Part shown: one piece after another, positions 42,089 to 47,827 of the stretch
How the letters are laid out: the number at the start of each line of letters is the position of its first letter
How positions within the stretch are numbered: the first letter of the stretch is position 1
Source: Catellatospora paridis
GTDB lineage: Bacteria; Actinomycetota; Actinomycetes; Mycobacteriales; Micromonosporaceae
Length of the DNA stretch: 64,000 nt
Assembly: GCF_009720365.1 (NCBI RefSeq)
Contig: NZ_ML769315.1
Span: 217,621-281,620, forward strand
Direction: 5' to 3'
Notes under the pieces: generated by a model
Database searches by the model: none
Told to the model about the DNA's origin: nothing
What the model saw: only the letters and a program-made list of their open reading frames with translations
Position numbers and translations under genes: made by a program

Positions 42089-43339
42089 TCACGACGTGAC
42101 CAGGCTCGCCTGCTGGGCGATGAGCACCCAGCTGATGTCCACCCAGGCCACCACGTTGCCGCAGCCCGTGCCGAACGAGCCGCAGGGCACCGGAGTCGTG
42201 CCGCCCACGATCTGACCCGCGGCGCGGACCTTGGAGAAATCGGCCGTGAGCGTGAACACCGGGCCGCCGCTGTCACCGGGGCCGGCCGCGGCCCGCCCGG
42301 AGACCTCGTTGCCCAGCGAGACCACGTCCACGAAGGCGAACCCGGCCAGCACCAGCTGGTTGATCCGGTTGGTGCGGATGTTGCAGTGCACGCCGGTGAA
42401 CCCGCCCGAGGTGCAGACGAACTGCCCCGGGAAGTTGCTGACCGCGCCGACCACCGGCTTGGAGAACTCCCCCACACCGACACCGCCGTCGTAGATGCGC
42501 GCACCGGATCTGGTGCGGATGAACAGCGAGTCGCTGAGCCGCCGCGCGGGCGCGGGCTCCGAGAGGCCGATGAGCTCCCCGGTCGGGTCCGTGAAGTTCA
42601 GCCCGCCGCCGGGCATGCAGTGCTCGGCGGTGAGGATGCCGCGGGCCGTCTCCCACCACAGGAAGTAGCGCGCCACCGCGAAGCCGGTGCTGCACCCGCC
42701 CGCGCCGGCGAACTGCCCGCGCAGCTGCGCCCCACCCCACCACGGCGCGAAGTCGTTCGCCCGGCTGTACGGCTGGATCTGCTCCTCGTCCTTGACGACG
42801 GTGGCCGCCACGGCGAACTCGTACTTGCCGGCCGCCTCGGGGTTGCTGGTCGCCACCTCCAGACCGCTGCCGTCGGGCAGCGGCCCGACCCGGGTCAGCC
42901 CCGGGTACGCCTCCGCCCGCTCTATCACCGCCGCGGCGGACTCGACGAGCTCGCGCTGCGTGTACTTCGACTCGCCGAGGGCGATCCGGATGCCGAGTTC
43001 GGACTCCGCGCGGGCGATCTCCTCGCGGACCTCGGCCGGCGCCTCGCCCTTCCACCACAGCTCCAGGGTCCGCTCCTCGACCTGCAGCCGCACCCCGCCC
43101 AGACCCGGGAACTTCGCGTCCAGGTCGGTGAAGCGCTGCGCCGCCTCGACCAGCGGCAGCTGCGCAGCCATGATCTCGGCGGCGGCGTTCGACCCGTCCT
43201 TCGGGTCCTCGCTGGTCCAGGCCGGCTTGTCCTCCTCGTACGCGGCCGCGGCGGGTGTTGCCGCGACCACCCCCCACACCGCCACCAGTGCCAGCACACC
43301 CAGTGCCGTGCGGCGTCTCCGCTGCCCGCTGCTGCGCAT
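42089..43339 (-). CDS. Secreted trypsin-like (S1 family) serine protease
   Basis: 416 residues. A signal peptide (about 1-33: RRRRTALGVLALVAVWGVVAATPAAAA) is followed by a long pro-region (about 35-205, including ERAEAYPGLTRVGPLPDGSGLEV, akin to the inhibitory prodomain of alpha-lytic-type proteases). The catalytic domain has His in GILTAEHCM, Asp in RRLSDSLFI and Ser in GPGDSGGPVF. Four or more Cys suggest disulfides. It is exported as a zymogen and degrades protein outside the cell. ATG 43339 has GGAGG 6 bases upstream, which decides it over upstream codons. It is divergent from the MCIGTS protein/two-component operon. Confidence 0.92.
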   Translation of the reverse strand: MRSSGQRRRRTALGVLALVAVWGVVAATPAAAAYEEDKPAWTSEDPKDGSNAAAEIMAAQLPLVEAAQRFTDLDAKFPGLGGVRLQVEERTLELWWKGEAPAEVREEIARAESELGIRIALGESKYTQRELVESAAAVIERAEAYPGLTRVGPLPDGSGLEVATSNPEAAGKYEFAVAATVVKDEEQIQPYSRANDFAPWWGGAQLRGQFAGAGGCSTGFAVARYFLWWETARGILTAEHCMPGGGLNFTDPTGELIGLSEPAPARRLSDSLFIRTRSGARIYDGGVGVGEFSKPVVGAVSNFPGQFVCTSGGFTGVHCNIRTNRINQLVLAGFAFVDVVSLGNEVSGRAAAGPGDSGGPVFTLTADFSKVRAAGQIVGGTTPVPCGSFGTGCGNVVAWVDISWVLIAQQASLVTS

Positions 43340-43599
43340 CGTTTCCTCCCTCGTGTCCGCCGCCGGTGCTCGGCGACTCACTCAGGCTGCGGTAATCCGG
43401 GTCGCACGGCGTCGGCCGAGGATCGGAACCAGGTCGTACGCCTACAGTCGTACCCGGACGGTCCGATCCCACCCGAGGTGGACCCGCGCCGCCCGCCGGA
43501 ACGCGGAAAGGCGACAGCCGAACCGATCGACCTGCGCAGACACCGGGGCTACTCTGCTGACACCCTTCCGCAGGCACCCTCCCTCCCCAGGAGCAGACC

Positions 43600-44184
43600 A
43601 TGTGCATCGGCACCTCCGTCCACGCCGACATCCGGGTGTCCGTCCAGGACAGATCCGCGCCCGACCGGGTCTCCGGCCACCTCGCCGCGGGCATCCTGGT
43701 CGACGCGGACGCCGTGCTCGTGCCCCGCCCATCCCCCGAACTGCTCGACCCGTCGCGCGACCTGGAGATCGTCGTGTTCCCGACGGACCTCGCCGAGCAC
43801 ACCCCGGTCGACGTGCTGACCGGCTGGAAGTGGAGCCGCTTCGCCCTGCGCGGGCAGGAGAAGCAGCCCACCGCCGCCGTCGCCAAGCTGGCCCACCACG
43901 CCACCTACGGCGCGCAGATCGGCGAGGTGGACAGTGGCGAGCTGGCCCGGCTCACCGCCGAGCTGGACGGCGACCTGTGGGCGGCGCTGACCCGGCTGGA
44001 GGCGGTGCCGCCCGGCATCGGCGAGATCGACCCGGCGCTGCTGGCCCGGCTCGGCGAGGTCGAGCGCGCGCAGCGGGTGCCACGCCGGGCCGAGCACACG
44101 TTCGACTCGTACGAGGCGATGACCGACGGGTTCTGCATCTTCTTCTGCTTCTGCCACCCCCACCACCCGCGGAGCAAGCCGTGA
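43600..44184 (+). CDS. Unrecognised protein with Cys/His-rich C-terminus, coupled to a two-component system
   Basis: 194 residues, no signal peptide or membrane helix. Residues about 1-75 (GHLAAGILVDADAVLVPRPS, DLEIVVFPTDL) faintly recall the start of trypsin-like domains, in which a VLTAAHC-type block would carry the catalytic His; here it is VLVPRPS, so no protease activity is expected. About 80-170 are helical. The last 25 residues change character: EAMTDGFCIFFCFC then HPHHPRSKP, giving C-X3-C-X-C-H-P-H-H next to aromatic residues. That could bind metal, insert in a membrane, or be a processed peptide. ATG 43600 follows AGGAGCAGACC. The stop overlaps the kinase start by 4 bp. Family unknown. 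Confidence 0.7.
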   Translation: MCIGTSVHADIRVSVQDRSAPDRVSGHLAAGILVDADAVLVPRPSPELLDPSRDLEIVVFPTDLAEHTPVDVLTGWKWSRFALRGQEKQPTAAVAKLAHHATYGAQIGEVDSGELARLTAELDGDLWAALTRLEAVPPGIGEIDPALLARLGEVERAQRVPRRAEHTFDSYEAMTDGFCIFFCFCHPHHPRSKP

Positions 44185-45359
44185 CGTGGTGGCGACGGGC
44201 GCAGGACACGGCGCTGGCCCTGGCCGTGTGGCTGCTCGACACGGCCCTGTTCTCCACGGCCGGGGCCGATCTCGGCGCGGCCCGCGGCGGCCGGTCCGCG
44301 CTGCTCATCGCCGGATACGTCGCGCTGGGCGCGGTGGCGCTGATCTGGCGGCGGCGCGCCCCGGTCGCGGTGTTCGCCTGGCTCTGGCTGCACGCCGTGG
44401 TCGGCAGCGTGTTCGTCGCCGGTTACCTGCCGACGCTGCCGCTGATGGTGGCCGTGTACACGGTCGGGGCCCACCTGTCCCGCCGCCAGGCCTGGCTGAT
44501 CGCCCCGGCGCTGGTGCCGTACGGCGTGCTCGCCGCCAACGGCGCGTGGCTCGAACCGCCGTCGCGCCAGGCGGCCACCTTCGTCGGGCTGCTGCTGGCG
44601 TTCAGCCTGCTGGTGGGCGGCGTGTGGGCGCTGGGCCGGTGGGCCGGCGCCAGCCGGCGGCGGCTGGCCGCGGCCGAGCAGCAGCGGGTCGCCTCAGCCC
44701 ACGCGGCGGTCGCCGCCGAGCGGGCGCGCATCTCGCGCGAGCTGCACGACATCGTCGCGCACACGGTGACGGTGATGATGCTGCAGGCGAGCGGGGCCGG
44801 CCGGATCATGGCCACCCGTCCCGAGCAGGCCCGCACCGCGCTCAGCCAGATCGAGGAGCTGGGCGGGCAGGCGATGGCGGAACTGCGCCGGATGCTGGCC
44901 GTGCTGGCGGCGGACGGCGCCGCCGAGCCCGCCGCGCAGCCCGGCCTCGGCGACCTGGACGAGCTGCTGGTGCGGATGCGGTCCGCCGGCATGCCGGTGG
45001 ACCTGGTGGTGGAGGGCGAGCCGCGGCAGCTGGATCCGTCCGTGGGACTGGCCGCCTACCGCACCGTGCAGGAGGCGCTGACGAACATCGCCAAGCACAA
45101 GGGCGGCGACGTGCCCGCCGTGGTGCGCCTGGTCTGGGCCGACGAACTGCTGGTCAAGGTCACCGACACGGGCGCGGCCGAGCTGCCGCGTTCCCCGCTG
45201 TCCACCGGGCACGGCCTGCTGGGCCTGCGGGAACGGGTCGCCGTCGCGGGCGGCAGGCTGGACGCCGGGCCCACCGGCGACGGTGGCTTCGAGGTCTCGG
45301 CGGCGCTGCCGGCCCAGGCGACCCGGGGCGGCCGACTTCCGGTCGGCGGGGCGCGATGA
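44181..45359 (+). CDS. Two-component sensor histidine kinase
   Basis: 392 residues. Four to five membrane helices (about 8-155) with short loops are followed by a coiled coil and the HisKA_3 helix containing [20 protein letters not shown], where His is phosphorylated. The HATPase_c domain has [21 protein letters not shown] and [16 protein letters not shown]. Start GTG 44181 overlaps the upstream TGA (GTGA), so its synthesis depends on the upstream Cys/His-tailed protein, which may therefore be its ligand, accessory sensor or target. The response regulator starts 37 bp downstream. Confidence 0.93.
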
Positions 45360-45396
45360 GCACGTCGGGCCGGCGACCGCGGACGGGTGGGCGGCG

Positions 45397-46086
45397 ATGA
45401 CCTTGCGAGTGCTGCTCGTCGACGACCAGCCGCTGGTCCGTGCCGGGATCGCGATGCTGCTGGCGGCCGAGCCGGACGTGGAGGTCGTCGGCGAGTGCGG
45501 CGACGGCGCCGACGCGGTGGCCCAGGCCTTGGCGCTGCGGCCGGACGTGGTGCTGATGGACGTGCGCATGGCCGGCATGGACGGGGTGGAGGCGACCCGG
45601 CGCATCACCGCCGACGGCTTCACGGGCGACCCGGACCGGCCGGTCAAGGTCGTCATCCTGACCACCTACCACGTCGACGAGACGGTGTACGCGGCCCTGC
45701 GCGCGGGCGCGTCCGGCTTCCTGCTCAAGGACGCGGTGCCCGCCGAGCTGACGCTCGCGGTGCGGGCGGTGGCGGCCGGGGAGGCCTGGCTCGACCCGGC
45801 GGTGGCCCGGGCCCTGCTGGACGAGTTCACCGCCCGGCCCGGACAGCAGGCACCCACCCCGGCCCGGATGCGCGGGCTGACCGACCGCGAGCGCGAGGTC
45901 CTGGTGCTCGCGGCGTACGGGCTGTCCAACACGGAGATCGCGGCGTCGCTGGTCATCGGCGAGGCCACGGTGAAGACGCACCTGGGCAGGGTGCTGATGA
46001 AACTCGGCGTGCGCGACCGCACCCAGGCCGTGGTCGCCGCCTACCAGCACGGTCTGGTCGAACCCGGCTCCCGCACCCGCTCCTGA
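45397..46086 (+). CDS. NarL/LuxR-type response regulator
   Basis: 229 residues. The receiver domain has [13 protein letters not shown], phosphoacceptor Asp in [19 protein letters not shown] (residue ~54), Thr in ILTTYH and Lys in [12 protein letters not shown] short insertion, [14 protein letters not shown], lengthens the alpha3-beta4 region. The LuxR-type DNA-binding domain is [47 protein letters not shown]. It pairs with the kinase just upstream. Its targets probably include the divergent protease or its own operon, but no binding site is proven. Confidence 0.94.
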
Positions 46087-46152: not shown

Positions 46153-46185
46153 ATGGGCGGTGCCTGCGGGCAAGTACTGGCATGA
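46153..46185 (+). other. Possible 10-codon leader peptide before the sigma factor gene
   Basis: ATG 46153 has a GAGAGGAG ribosome site 7-8 bases upstream and encodes MGGACGQVLA. Its TGA overlaps the sigma factor ATG (ATGA, 46182-46185). The sigma gene has no other ribosome site, so translation would pass from the leader to the sigma factor. Confidence 0.45.
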
Positions 46186-46757
46186 CCGTGACGACCCAGC
46201 ACGACCCACCGGCCGGAGCCGACCCACCGGCTGCCGAGCCGCCGCCGGACCCAGCCGACCTCGGCGCGATGTTCGACGCGTACGCCCGCGACCTGCTGCG
46301 CTACGCCGGTCAGCGGGTCGGCGAGCAGGTCGCCGAGGACGTCGTGGCGCAGACCTTCCTGATCGCGTACGAGCAGCGCCACCGCTACGACGGCACCCGC
46401 GGCGCGATGCTGCCCTGGCTGTACGGCATCTGCGGCAACCTGCTGCGCCGCCACCACCGCACCGAGGTCCGGGCGCTGCGCGCCGTGGCCGCGACCCACG
46501 CCGCTGACGAGGTCGCGCCGGACGCCCGCTCCGCGGAGCGCGTCGACGCGCAGCGCGCCGTGGCCCGCGTCGCGACCGCGCTGGCCAAGCTGCCCCGCCG
46601 CCAGCGCGAGGTGCTGCTGCTGTTCGCCGTCGCCGAGCTGGAGTACGCCGAGATCGCGCTGGCGCTCGGGATCCCACTGGGCTCCGTGCAGTCGGCTCTG
46701 CACCGCGCCCGTACGAAGATCAAATCTGCGCTCTCCGCCACCGGAGGTTCCCGATGA
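46182..46757 (+). CDS. ECF-type RNA polymerase sigma factor
   Basis: 191 residues. After a Pro-rich start, region 2 is AMFDAYARDLLRYAGQRVGEQVAEDVVAQTFLIAYEQRHRYDGTRGAMLPWLYGI and region 4 is LPRRQREVLLLFAVAELEYAEIALALGIPLGSVQSALHRARTKIK. These bind the -10 and -35 boxes of dedicated promoters. The stop overlaps the next gene's ATG by 4 bp. In this family the downstream membrane protein commonly accompanies the sigma factor and may control it. A 10-codon leader frame overlaps the start. Confidence 0.93.
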   Translation: MTVTTQHDPPAGADPPAAEPPPDPADLGAMFDAYARDLLRYAGQRVGEQVAEDVVAQTFLIAYEQRHRYDGTRGAMLPWLYGICGNLLRRHHRTEVRALRAVAATHAADEVAPDARSAERVDAQRAVARVATALAKLPRRQREVLLLFAVAELEYAEIALALGIPLGSVQSALHRARTKIKSALSATGGSR

Positions 46758-47827
46758 CCCGCACCGACCCCGACCTCACCGCGGTACGTGACCTGCCCGC
46801 CGGCTCACCCGGCCCGTCCGACGAGTCCGTCGCCCGCACCTGGTACCTGCTCAACGCCCGCCAAGCCGCGGCGCGGGGCCGCGCTCCCCGCAGGCTGGCC
46901 CGCTGGCTCGTCCCGGTCGCCGCGAGTCTGACGGTGACGGTCGTCGCGCTCGGCGCGGTGACGGTCGGCGGCGTCGGCGGCCACCGGTTCGCCACCCCGA
47001 GCATCGCCCTGGTGAAGGCCTCCCACCAGCCACTGCCCGCCGTACGCGGCACGGACCCCGCACTGTCACGGACGACTCCGGAGGCGGTCGCGGCGCTGGA
47101 CGAGCTCGCCCGCACCGCCGCGCACGCCCGGGCCGTCGACCTGCGTCCCGGCCAGCTGGTGCACGTGCTCACCGAGGGCTGGGCCGCCGACCTCACCGGC
47201 GGCTGGACCGGGACGCTGGAGTTCCAGCCCCGTGAGTCGTGGCTGGACCCGCAGGGCATGATCCCGCTGAAGCTGCTCAACGGTGACGAGAACATGTTCG
47301 AGAGCATGTTCGCCGACCACGAGGGCAACCTGGAGCACGCCCGCGCCTTCCTGCGCGACAACGGTCCGAGCATCGTGTCGCCGACCCCGCAATGGCTGGC
47401 CCAGCTGCCGACCGACCCGCCGGCACTGCTGGCCCTGCTGCGCGCCGACCTGGACGACGGCGGGGCGTGGACTGCGGACCACCAGCTCTGGGACGCCATG
47501 GCCCAGCTCTACATGAGCTGCGACATCCTGCTCAGCCCGCAGCTGCGGGCCGCGCTGCTGCGCTCGTTCCAGGGCATGGACGGGCTGACCGCCGGCACGG
47601 TCATGATCGACGACATCGAGCTGGTGGCGATCCGCCAGACCGACGGCGTCTCGGCGGACGAGATCCTGTTCGATCCGGTCACGGCTTGGGCCGTCGGCCG
47701 GCGCAGCGTGAACCTCGACGACCGGCTGCGGCTGACCCCGCCCAAGGTCGGGCCGAAGTTCGATCCGCTGGTCAGCTACCACGCCACCTGGCGGCAGAGC
47801 ATCGTCGGCAGCGTCGACGAACGCTGA
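46754..47827 (+). CDS. CU044_5270-type membrane protein, partner of the sigma factor
   Basis: 357 residues. A cytoplasmic N-terminus of about 50 residues (TWYLLNARQAAARGR) is followed by one membrane helix (about 53-75) and a large extracellular domain (about 80-357: LDELARTAAHARAVDLRPGQLVHVLTEGW, LLRADLDDGGAWTADHQLWDAMAQLYMSC, PKFDPLVSYHATW). This is the layout of CU044_5270 family proteins, which usually follow an ECF sigma gene and have no proven function; an anti-sigma-like role is inferred from topology and coupling. The ATG overlaps the sigma stop by 4 bp. Confidence 0.8.
   Translation: MTRTDPDLTAVRDLPAGSPGPSDESVARTWYLLNARQAAARGRAPRRLARWLVPVAASLTVTVVALGAVTVGGVGGHRFATPSIALVKASHQPLPAVRGTDPALSRTTPEAVAALDELARTAAHARAVDLRPGQLVHVLTEGWAADLTGGWTGTLEFQPRESWLDPQGMIPLKLLNGDENMFESMFADHEGNLEHARAFLRDNGPSIVSPTPQWLAQLPTDPPALLALLRADLDDGGAWTADHQLWDAMAQLYMSCDILLSPQLRAALLRSFQGMDGLTAGTVMIDDIELVAIRQTDGVSADEILFDPVTAWAVGRRSVNLDDRLRLTPPKVGPKFDPLVSYHATWRQSIVGSVDER

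Follow-up and report, generated by a model that had tools for sequence, protein, structure and literature searches.

A conserved Cys-tailed protein with a predicted half-protease fold, adjoining a membrane histidine kinase in Catellatospora paridis and its relatives

Actinobacteria contain many kinases without sensor domains, and what such kinases respond to is an open question. The question arises again at a locus of Catellatospora paridis located on contig 4 of an 8.97 Mb genome. In the window, i.e. the whole stretch of 64,000 nucleotides analysed, three genes stand in a row on the plus strand (43600-46086) and encode a protein of 194 residues, a histidine kinase and a LuxR-type regulator. 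What could the first of these proteins do for the second? The TGA of the accessory gene and the GTG of the kinase gene overlap as GTGA (44181-44184), and 260 bases separate the cassette from a divergent gene encoding a protease of 416 residues (Table 1). When the open reading frames were read again, the coordinates, the letters and the GTGA overlap given in the preliminary description were found to be correct. Downstream of the regulator (46182-47827), a sigma-factor-like gene is followed by a gene with one membrane segment (both named by reading); the same pair, as judged by cluster and length, follows in genome G002.

Table 1. Features of the cassette and of its shared promoter (positions in the window)
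Feature	Position	Strand	Basis or remarks
194-aa accessory protein	43600..44184	+	barrel ~10-99, helical part ~100-176, Cys tail
Conserved C-terminal tail, residues 177-194	44128..44181	+	alignment and pN/pS
Histidine kinase, multi-pass membrane N-terminus, start overlapping the accessory gene	44181..45359	+	
LuxR/NarL-type response regulator	45397..46086	+	Response_reg and GerE matches
Divergent secreted S1 protease, alpha-lytic kind, 416 aa, probable target	42089..43339	-	
Palindromic candidate operator GTACGCCTACAGTCGTAC	43436..43453	none	18-base symmetric model
Second candidate operator TCCCACCCGAGGTGGACCCG	43467..43486	none	non-symmetric model
Probable -10 region CTACTCTGCT of the cassette promoter	43549..43558	+	function inferred from relatives

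The 194-residue protein gave no meaningful match in Pfam or NCBIfam, and a profile built from four sequences matched no PDB sequence. With the alignment of 24 members described below, nothing was obtained in NCBIfam and Pfam returned only single-member matches (E 0.06-0.14). PADLOC also returned no match for this protein, and its reading as part of a defence system was therefore dropped. Homologues were collected by a profile search (E<=0.01) of 354 genomes from the bacterial family of the window, which pointed to 30 genomes. Twenty-four were kept; the six weak rows left out (17.8 to 20.9 bits) corresponded, by reading, to unrelated stretches in five cases and to a remnant in the sixth (G224). 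An order-wide search of 397 genomes added three members from two other families (G669, G592 and G378), G400 being excluded at 21.7 bits, and a class-wide search yielded none in 393 other genomes at E<=0.001, with eight candidates scored in most genomes. The protein thus represents a real, conserved family, whose 27 members are distributed over nine genera of the window's own family and two genera of the two others.

The protein of the window ends with FCIFFCFC followed by HPHH. At least two Cys are present within the last 25 residues of all 27 homologues (range two to five), which indicates that the Cys tail is more than a product of chance. As a background, 42 of the 280 called proteins of 100-260 residues in the fetched loci have such a tail; 36 of these are the tailed proteins themselves, and the rate among the remaining ones is 6/244. 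Across the 24 rows of the alignment, C179 and C183 do not vary and C185 hardly does. The preliminary description had taken the whole Cys- and His-containing end as a feature and had named metal or thiol sensing and a long-leader peptide precursor as possible roles. Its Cys part was borne out by this alignment and by the low pN/pS ratio of the tail in the closer groups; the HPHH part was not, since the His residues of the tail, HPHH included, vary among the 24 rows. A metal site with conserved His was accordingly set aside as unlikely. That the tail binds a metal or a cofactor (zinc, an iron-sulphur centre or haem), the protein then being a cytoplasmic metal sensor for the kinase, would agree with the two to five Cys found in every family member, but their spacing varies as well (C-x3-C-x-C, C-x5-C and others), several members have two Cys only, and a partner protein found through its kinase (in G322, see below) has a single one. 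On these grounds we consider a metal or cofactor site unlikely.

The coupling to a two-component system, also proposed beforehand, is equally constant. In all 27 loci, a kinase of the same cluster is adjacent to the tailed-protein gene and a regulator lies next to the pair, downstream of it in most cases, upstream in L089 and on the other strand in L073. The preliminary description had held that homologues devoid of the tail or of the kinase would make either feature incidental; such homologues were looked for and none was encountered among intact copies. Two decayed copies, L081 and L080 (the latter in G224), have neither kinase nor regulator. In L081 (G002:C1:6795921-6796268), a truncated half-protease adjoins a B-lectin-type gene, and L080 is a short remnant at the site where G239 (L075) carries the whole cassette. 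Operons can hold unrelated genes, and the tailed protein might be a chance operon partner without any functional coupling to the kinase. With a linkage kept in 27 of 27 intact homologues, from 11 genera that belong to three families of the order, this is hardly credible.

In order to describe the constraint on the tail, uncorrected pN/pS ratios are given here for the barrel, the middle part and the tail, in that order. They amounted to 0.56, 0.78 and 0.26 for 17 close members of the family, to 0.39, 0.54 and 0.12 for a subgroup of nine of these, and to 0.86, 0.78 and 0.30 for a second group of partner proteins (family 2, see below). In the seven most distant members of the first family, for which synonymous sites are near saturation and the Cys spacing differs, the ratios were 0.82, 0.91 and 0.90, the tail being no better conserved than the rest. 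Constraint is thus strongest on the tail within the closer groups, a pattern not seen among the most distant members.

The fold of the protein was predicted with AlphaFold. The model obtained from four close sequences (pLDDT 48.7) was set aside; the one obtained from 24 sequences reached a pLDDT of 88.5 and a pTM of 0.80, with values mostly above 90 in the N-terminal domain. Strands are confined to residues 11-97 of this model and are followed by helices. A Foldseek search against the PDB gave S1-type proteases or complexes, by title, among the best 50 matches listed, the first one with an E value of 2.8e-4, a probability of 1.00 and a TM score of ~0.4 over ~110 columns. With VIA-align, Z scores up to 8.7 were observed over 95-104 residues (rmsd 3.3-3.8), a level that the tool's own note ranks as middling. 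The matches mostly concern the first of the two protease barrels, and the resemblance spans residues 7-150.

A stretch of the protein, RVSIQ...GHLAAGVLVDGDLVLVPNPP, reads like the trypsin pattern QVSL...HFCGGSLI...WVLTAAHC, and Pro44 occupies the expected position of the catalytic His. No TAAHC or GDSGG block, and so none of the catalytic His, Asp and Ser, was found in the alignment of the family. Pfam Trypsin gave no match for the 194-residue protein and none in the 24 members at E<=1, and when the family was compared by hhalign with the neighbouring protease and with three trypsin-like proteins encoded in the genome, nothing was obtained (probability <1%). Because the Z scores are middling and hhalign found no sequence relation, we speak of a fold resemblance to S1 proteases and not of membership. 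The likeness of the N-terminal part to a protease deprived of its catalytic residues, suspected from the sequence, was hence supported by the predicted fold and not by profile-profile comparison. The accessory protein is predicted to consist of a single beta-barrel of the chymotrypsin type, devoid of catalytic residues, and of helices. The model resembles the first barrel of chymotrypsin-like S1 proteases; unlike them, the protein lacks the sequence match, the catalytic residues and, in the prediction, the second beta-barrel, and has a helical part and a Cys tail instead.

The kinase provides a second way into the same question. In the window kinase, HisKA_3 was recognised at 8e-19 and DUF7134 at 28.3 bits (cut-off 27); HATPase_c scored 25.6 bits, just under its cut-off of 26.4. 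A profile was built from the membrane parts of 21 kinases and searched in the 354 genomes of the same family, which gave 45 rows: 24 cassette genomes at 114-222 bits and 21 further rows at 51-131 bits. Twenty of these further loci were fetched (G143 omitted) and 19 were readable, G157 lying at a contig edge. In 11 of the 19, the upstream protein has at least two Cys in its last 25 residues; the other upstream genes encode one protein with a single tail Cys (G322) and five small proteins with Sec-like signals (by eye), and two loci held nothing clear. The kinase profile thus led to 12 further Cys-tailed partners, including the one of G322 with its single Cys. As tailed loci were used to build the kinase profile (and the protease profile as well, with the same bias), this comparison is partly true by construction, its independent part being the 11/19.

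In a class-wide search of 132 genomes, the kinase profile gave, besides the window, only scores of 37-50 bits, and 19 such loci were taken as an outgroup. None of the 19 outgroup kinases has a Cys-tailed upstream protein: the upstream gene is divergent in 12 loci, and the seven co-directional ones encode proteins with no or one tail Cys. In a tree of 59 kinases, 44 of the cassette group were split from 15 outgroup kinases with a support of 100/100. The kinases next to Sec-signal proteins are nested among those with Cys-tailed partners, which suggests that the partner may act outside the membrane. These kinases, distant members of the same clade, lie in L108, L109, L111, L114 and L116 behind genes for small proteins with Sec-like signals, and two of the five small proteins contain a Cys pair (RLCSSIFKNC and WLCKAQPEWC). 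In L110 (G326), a divergent Cys-tailed protein ending with VFCALRPKPWWCR precedes a related kinase. No Cys is conserved in the kinases themselves, the best column containing 12 of 44 and the window kinase having none. A disulphide between tail and kinase was therefore judged unlikely.

Eight of the further partners form family 2. They share the tail PL[ST]W[TLA]CR[ILM][FL]GIGCP, which follows a variable linker; over the whole protein, identity to the first alignment row is 32-55%, and no Pfam match was obtained. When families 1 and 2 were compared by hhalign, their first strands were in register without reaching significance (E 0.14). A pattern search detected in 8/8 of these loci an open reading frame of 31-34 residues resembling a class III precursor and forming a separate gene; the one tested scored 21.5 bits (cut-off 22). 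In six loci (L099, L100, L102, L104, L106 and L107), a large divergent gene starts alike, and the two examples tested are class III LanKC genes, at 954 and 934 bits (cut-off 575). Upstream in L101 lies a partial LanKC gene, of which the C-terminal end is present (95 bits), and ABC transporter genes follow; L105 has the same arrangement by reading. Judging from this gene content, the eight family-2 cassettes lie in class III lanthipeptide loci. Inverted repeats were listed in six family-2 intergenic regions. The 194-residue protein of the window, by reading, is itself no precursor of this kind: neither a short leader with an I/L-L-x-L-Q motif nor a Ser/Thr-Cys core was seen.

RamR, an orphan LuxR-type regulator, adjoins ramCSAB in Streptomyces. 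The family-2 loci are similar in that a LuxR-type regulator adjoins a LanKC/RamC gene. They differ from the orphan RamR in that a kinase and a Cys-tailed protein accompany the regulator; at the locus of the window itself, a protease gene is found in place of the LanKC gene.

A C-terminal peptide that is short and strongly conserved and follows a variable linker, as in family 2, is also what might be expected if the tail were a peptide signal. The half-protease would then serve as a carrier, from which a Cys peptide is released, exported and detected by the kinase, as for ComX and ComP. In peptide quorum-sensing loci of the ComQXPA type, a protein, a multi-pass HisKA_3-type kinase and a LuxR-type regulator are encoded in this order. 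The present cassette resembles these and other peptide quorum-sensing loci in its gene order and in its kinase and regulator types (such loci are tabulated in PMC8895600), and the small Sec-signal proteins preceding some related kinases point in the same direction. Unlike for ComQXPA, however, neither a modifying enzyme nor an exporter was seen to recur among the clustered neighbours of the 27 family-1 cassettes, and no prenyltransferase (ComQ) cluster recurs in these loci, whose neighbours are annotated in part. Moreover, the accessory protein has no signal peptide, its large N-terminal domain is well folded in the prediction (pLDDT mostly >90), and its tail evolves slowest in the closer groups, whereas pheromones usually diversify. 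A peptide signal is thus rather unlikely, though we place it ahead of a metal or cofactor site.

What the cassette controls is suggested by the gene on the other side of the promoter. The divergent protease has a signal-like N-terminus (by eye), and its His240, Asp270 and Ser357 are invariant in 9/9 relatives. When the PDB was searched with a profile of nine linked proteases, alpha-lytic protease was matched at 1.2e-5; the window protease's own match to Pfam Trypsin is below the cut-off (14.7 vs 20.6 bits). When the 354 genomes were searched with the protease profile (five candidates scored per genome), the close subfamily (>400 bits) was found in 12/24 cassette genomes vs 0/330 others. In three genomes (G168, G220 and G340), the close protease is unlinked to the cassette; counting these copies alone, 3/15 cassette genomes without a linked protease contain it vs 0/330 (p 6.7e-5, uncorrected for kinship). 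The link to a secreted protease, put forward in the preliminary description, is therefore upheld, as the close subfamily is confined to cassette genomes. In G326 (L095), the protease has two remoter relatives (305 and 254 bits), both unlinked to the Cys-tailed locus. The divergent neighbour is this protease in nine of the 27 loci, a B-lectin protein in three (one tested) and an M4-type protease in one. No secreted protein occupies the divergent position in the 14 others, where AMP-binding (five, one tested), DAHP synthase (two, one tested), DUF1444 (below cut-off), AfsA and others were found.

The shared promoter was then considered. In several relatives, CTAC-N-CTGC-like strings occur 35-45 bases upstream of the start. 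A non-symmetric model trained on the linked promoters alone picked up the core promoter and did not succeed at the unlinked ones; a symmetric model, in four widths, was chosen after this failure, with the data already seen. Trained on 11 linked promoters, the symmetric 18-base model, of the GTCCGCCC-GCGGGCGGAC type, scored 53.3, while 20 shuffles, in which kinship is not preserved, reached 32.3 at most. Recurrence was assessed on promoters outside the training set, L066 being left out. At the three unlinked protease promoters, the p values relative to random windows of the same locus were 0.050, 0.026 and 0.001 at width 18, 0.099, 0.072 and 0.023 at width 16, 0.037, 0.022 and 0.001 at width 20, and 0.044, 0.017 and 0.036 at width 22. 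As two of these promoters (L092 and L093) are syntenic, the p values at width 18 were combined without one of them, giving 5e-4. The palindrome also recurred at four related cassette promoters without a linked protease (p 0.044, 0.011, 0.015 and 0.011), and was absent at a protease relative of G326 (0.86) and at two distant cassettes (0.91 and 0.14). A non-symmetric model of linked and unlinked promoters together yielded the palindrome as well. We consider it a candidate operator.

The tailed-protein gene is in one operon with its own regulator, behind a promoter that carries a candidate operator, and the protein could be mainly an output, i.e. a regulated effector or a protease-associated factor, and not an input. 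Its gene, however, overlaps that of the kinase and is lost together with it, which suggests that the accessory protein is part of the signalling unit. An output role therefore appears very unlikely.

Our preferred reading, to which we give a probability of about one half, is that the three genes form one signalling cassette, whose tailed half-protease assists an intramembrane kinase in the control of an exported product. The 194-residue protein contains no hydrophobic window of 19 residues and, by reading, no signal peptide; since neither a signal peptide nor a membrane segment was seen, it would stay in the cytoplasm. Translational coupling could allow it to be made in step with the kinase, on whose loop-poor membrane domain the hydrophobic Cys tail would act, most simply as a switch dependent on thiol or membrane state. 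The regulator would then bind the palindromic sites of the shared promoter and tune the divergent gene for an exported product. In the window, this product would be the secreted protease of alpha-lytic type; in relatives it would be a B-lectin protein or a protease of the M4 type, or come from a class III lanthipeptide locus. As to its chemistry, the tail may act by an internal thiol switch, by inserting into the membrane or as a released peptide.

The closest system found in print is HbpS-SenS-SenR of Streptomyces. In that system, the accessory gene is clustered in the same orientation with those of a membrane kinase and a response regulator, and HbpS acts on the sensing domain of the kinase SenS (PMC4991794). 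Similarly, the accessory gene described here adjoins a kinase and a LuxR-type regulator in 27/27 homologues. HbpS, reportedly octameric (PMC3754957), is secreted and has a GAF/PAS-like fold, whereas the protein described here is devoid of a signal peptide, is predicted to fold as a chymotrypsin-type barrel and ends in a Cys tail. Homology to HbpS was not found, no Pfam family being above chance in the 24 members and the predicted fold being different. No description of this cassette was encountered among the top-ranked results of the open-access literature.

In conclusion, the half-protease-like protein probably helps the kinase to control genes for exported products, such as the adjacent protease. 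More speculatively, and with a good deal less confidence, the cassettes could define a novel class of signalling modules, spread over at least three families of the order. The C-terminal Cys peptide carried by a degenerate half of a serine protease would itself be the signal or the switch for an intramembrane kinase, and each module would drive a different exported product (a full-length protease cousin here, class III lanthipeptides elsewhere). For the question of what kinases without sensor domains respond to, the compact accessory protein offers a sharp experimental handle, with two Cys near its C-terminus and named candidate targets, the secreted protease here and the lanthipeptide loci in relatives. 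If true, this would be an unusual reuse of one protease-fold barrel as a signalling part.
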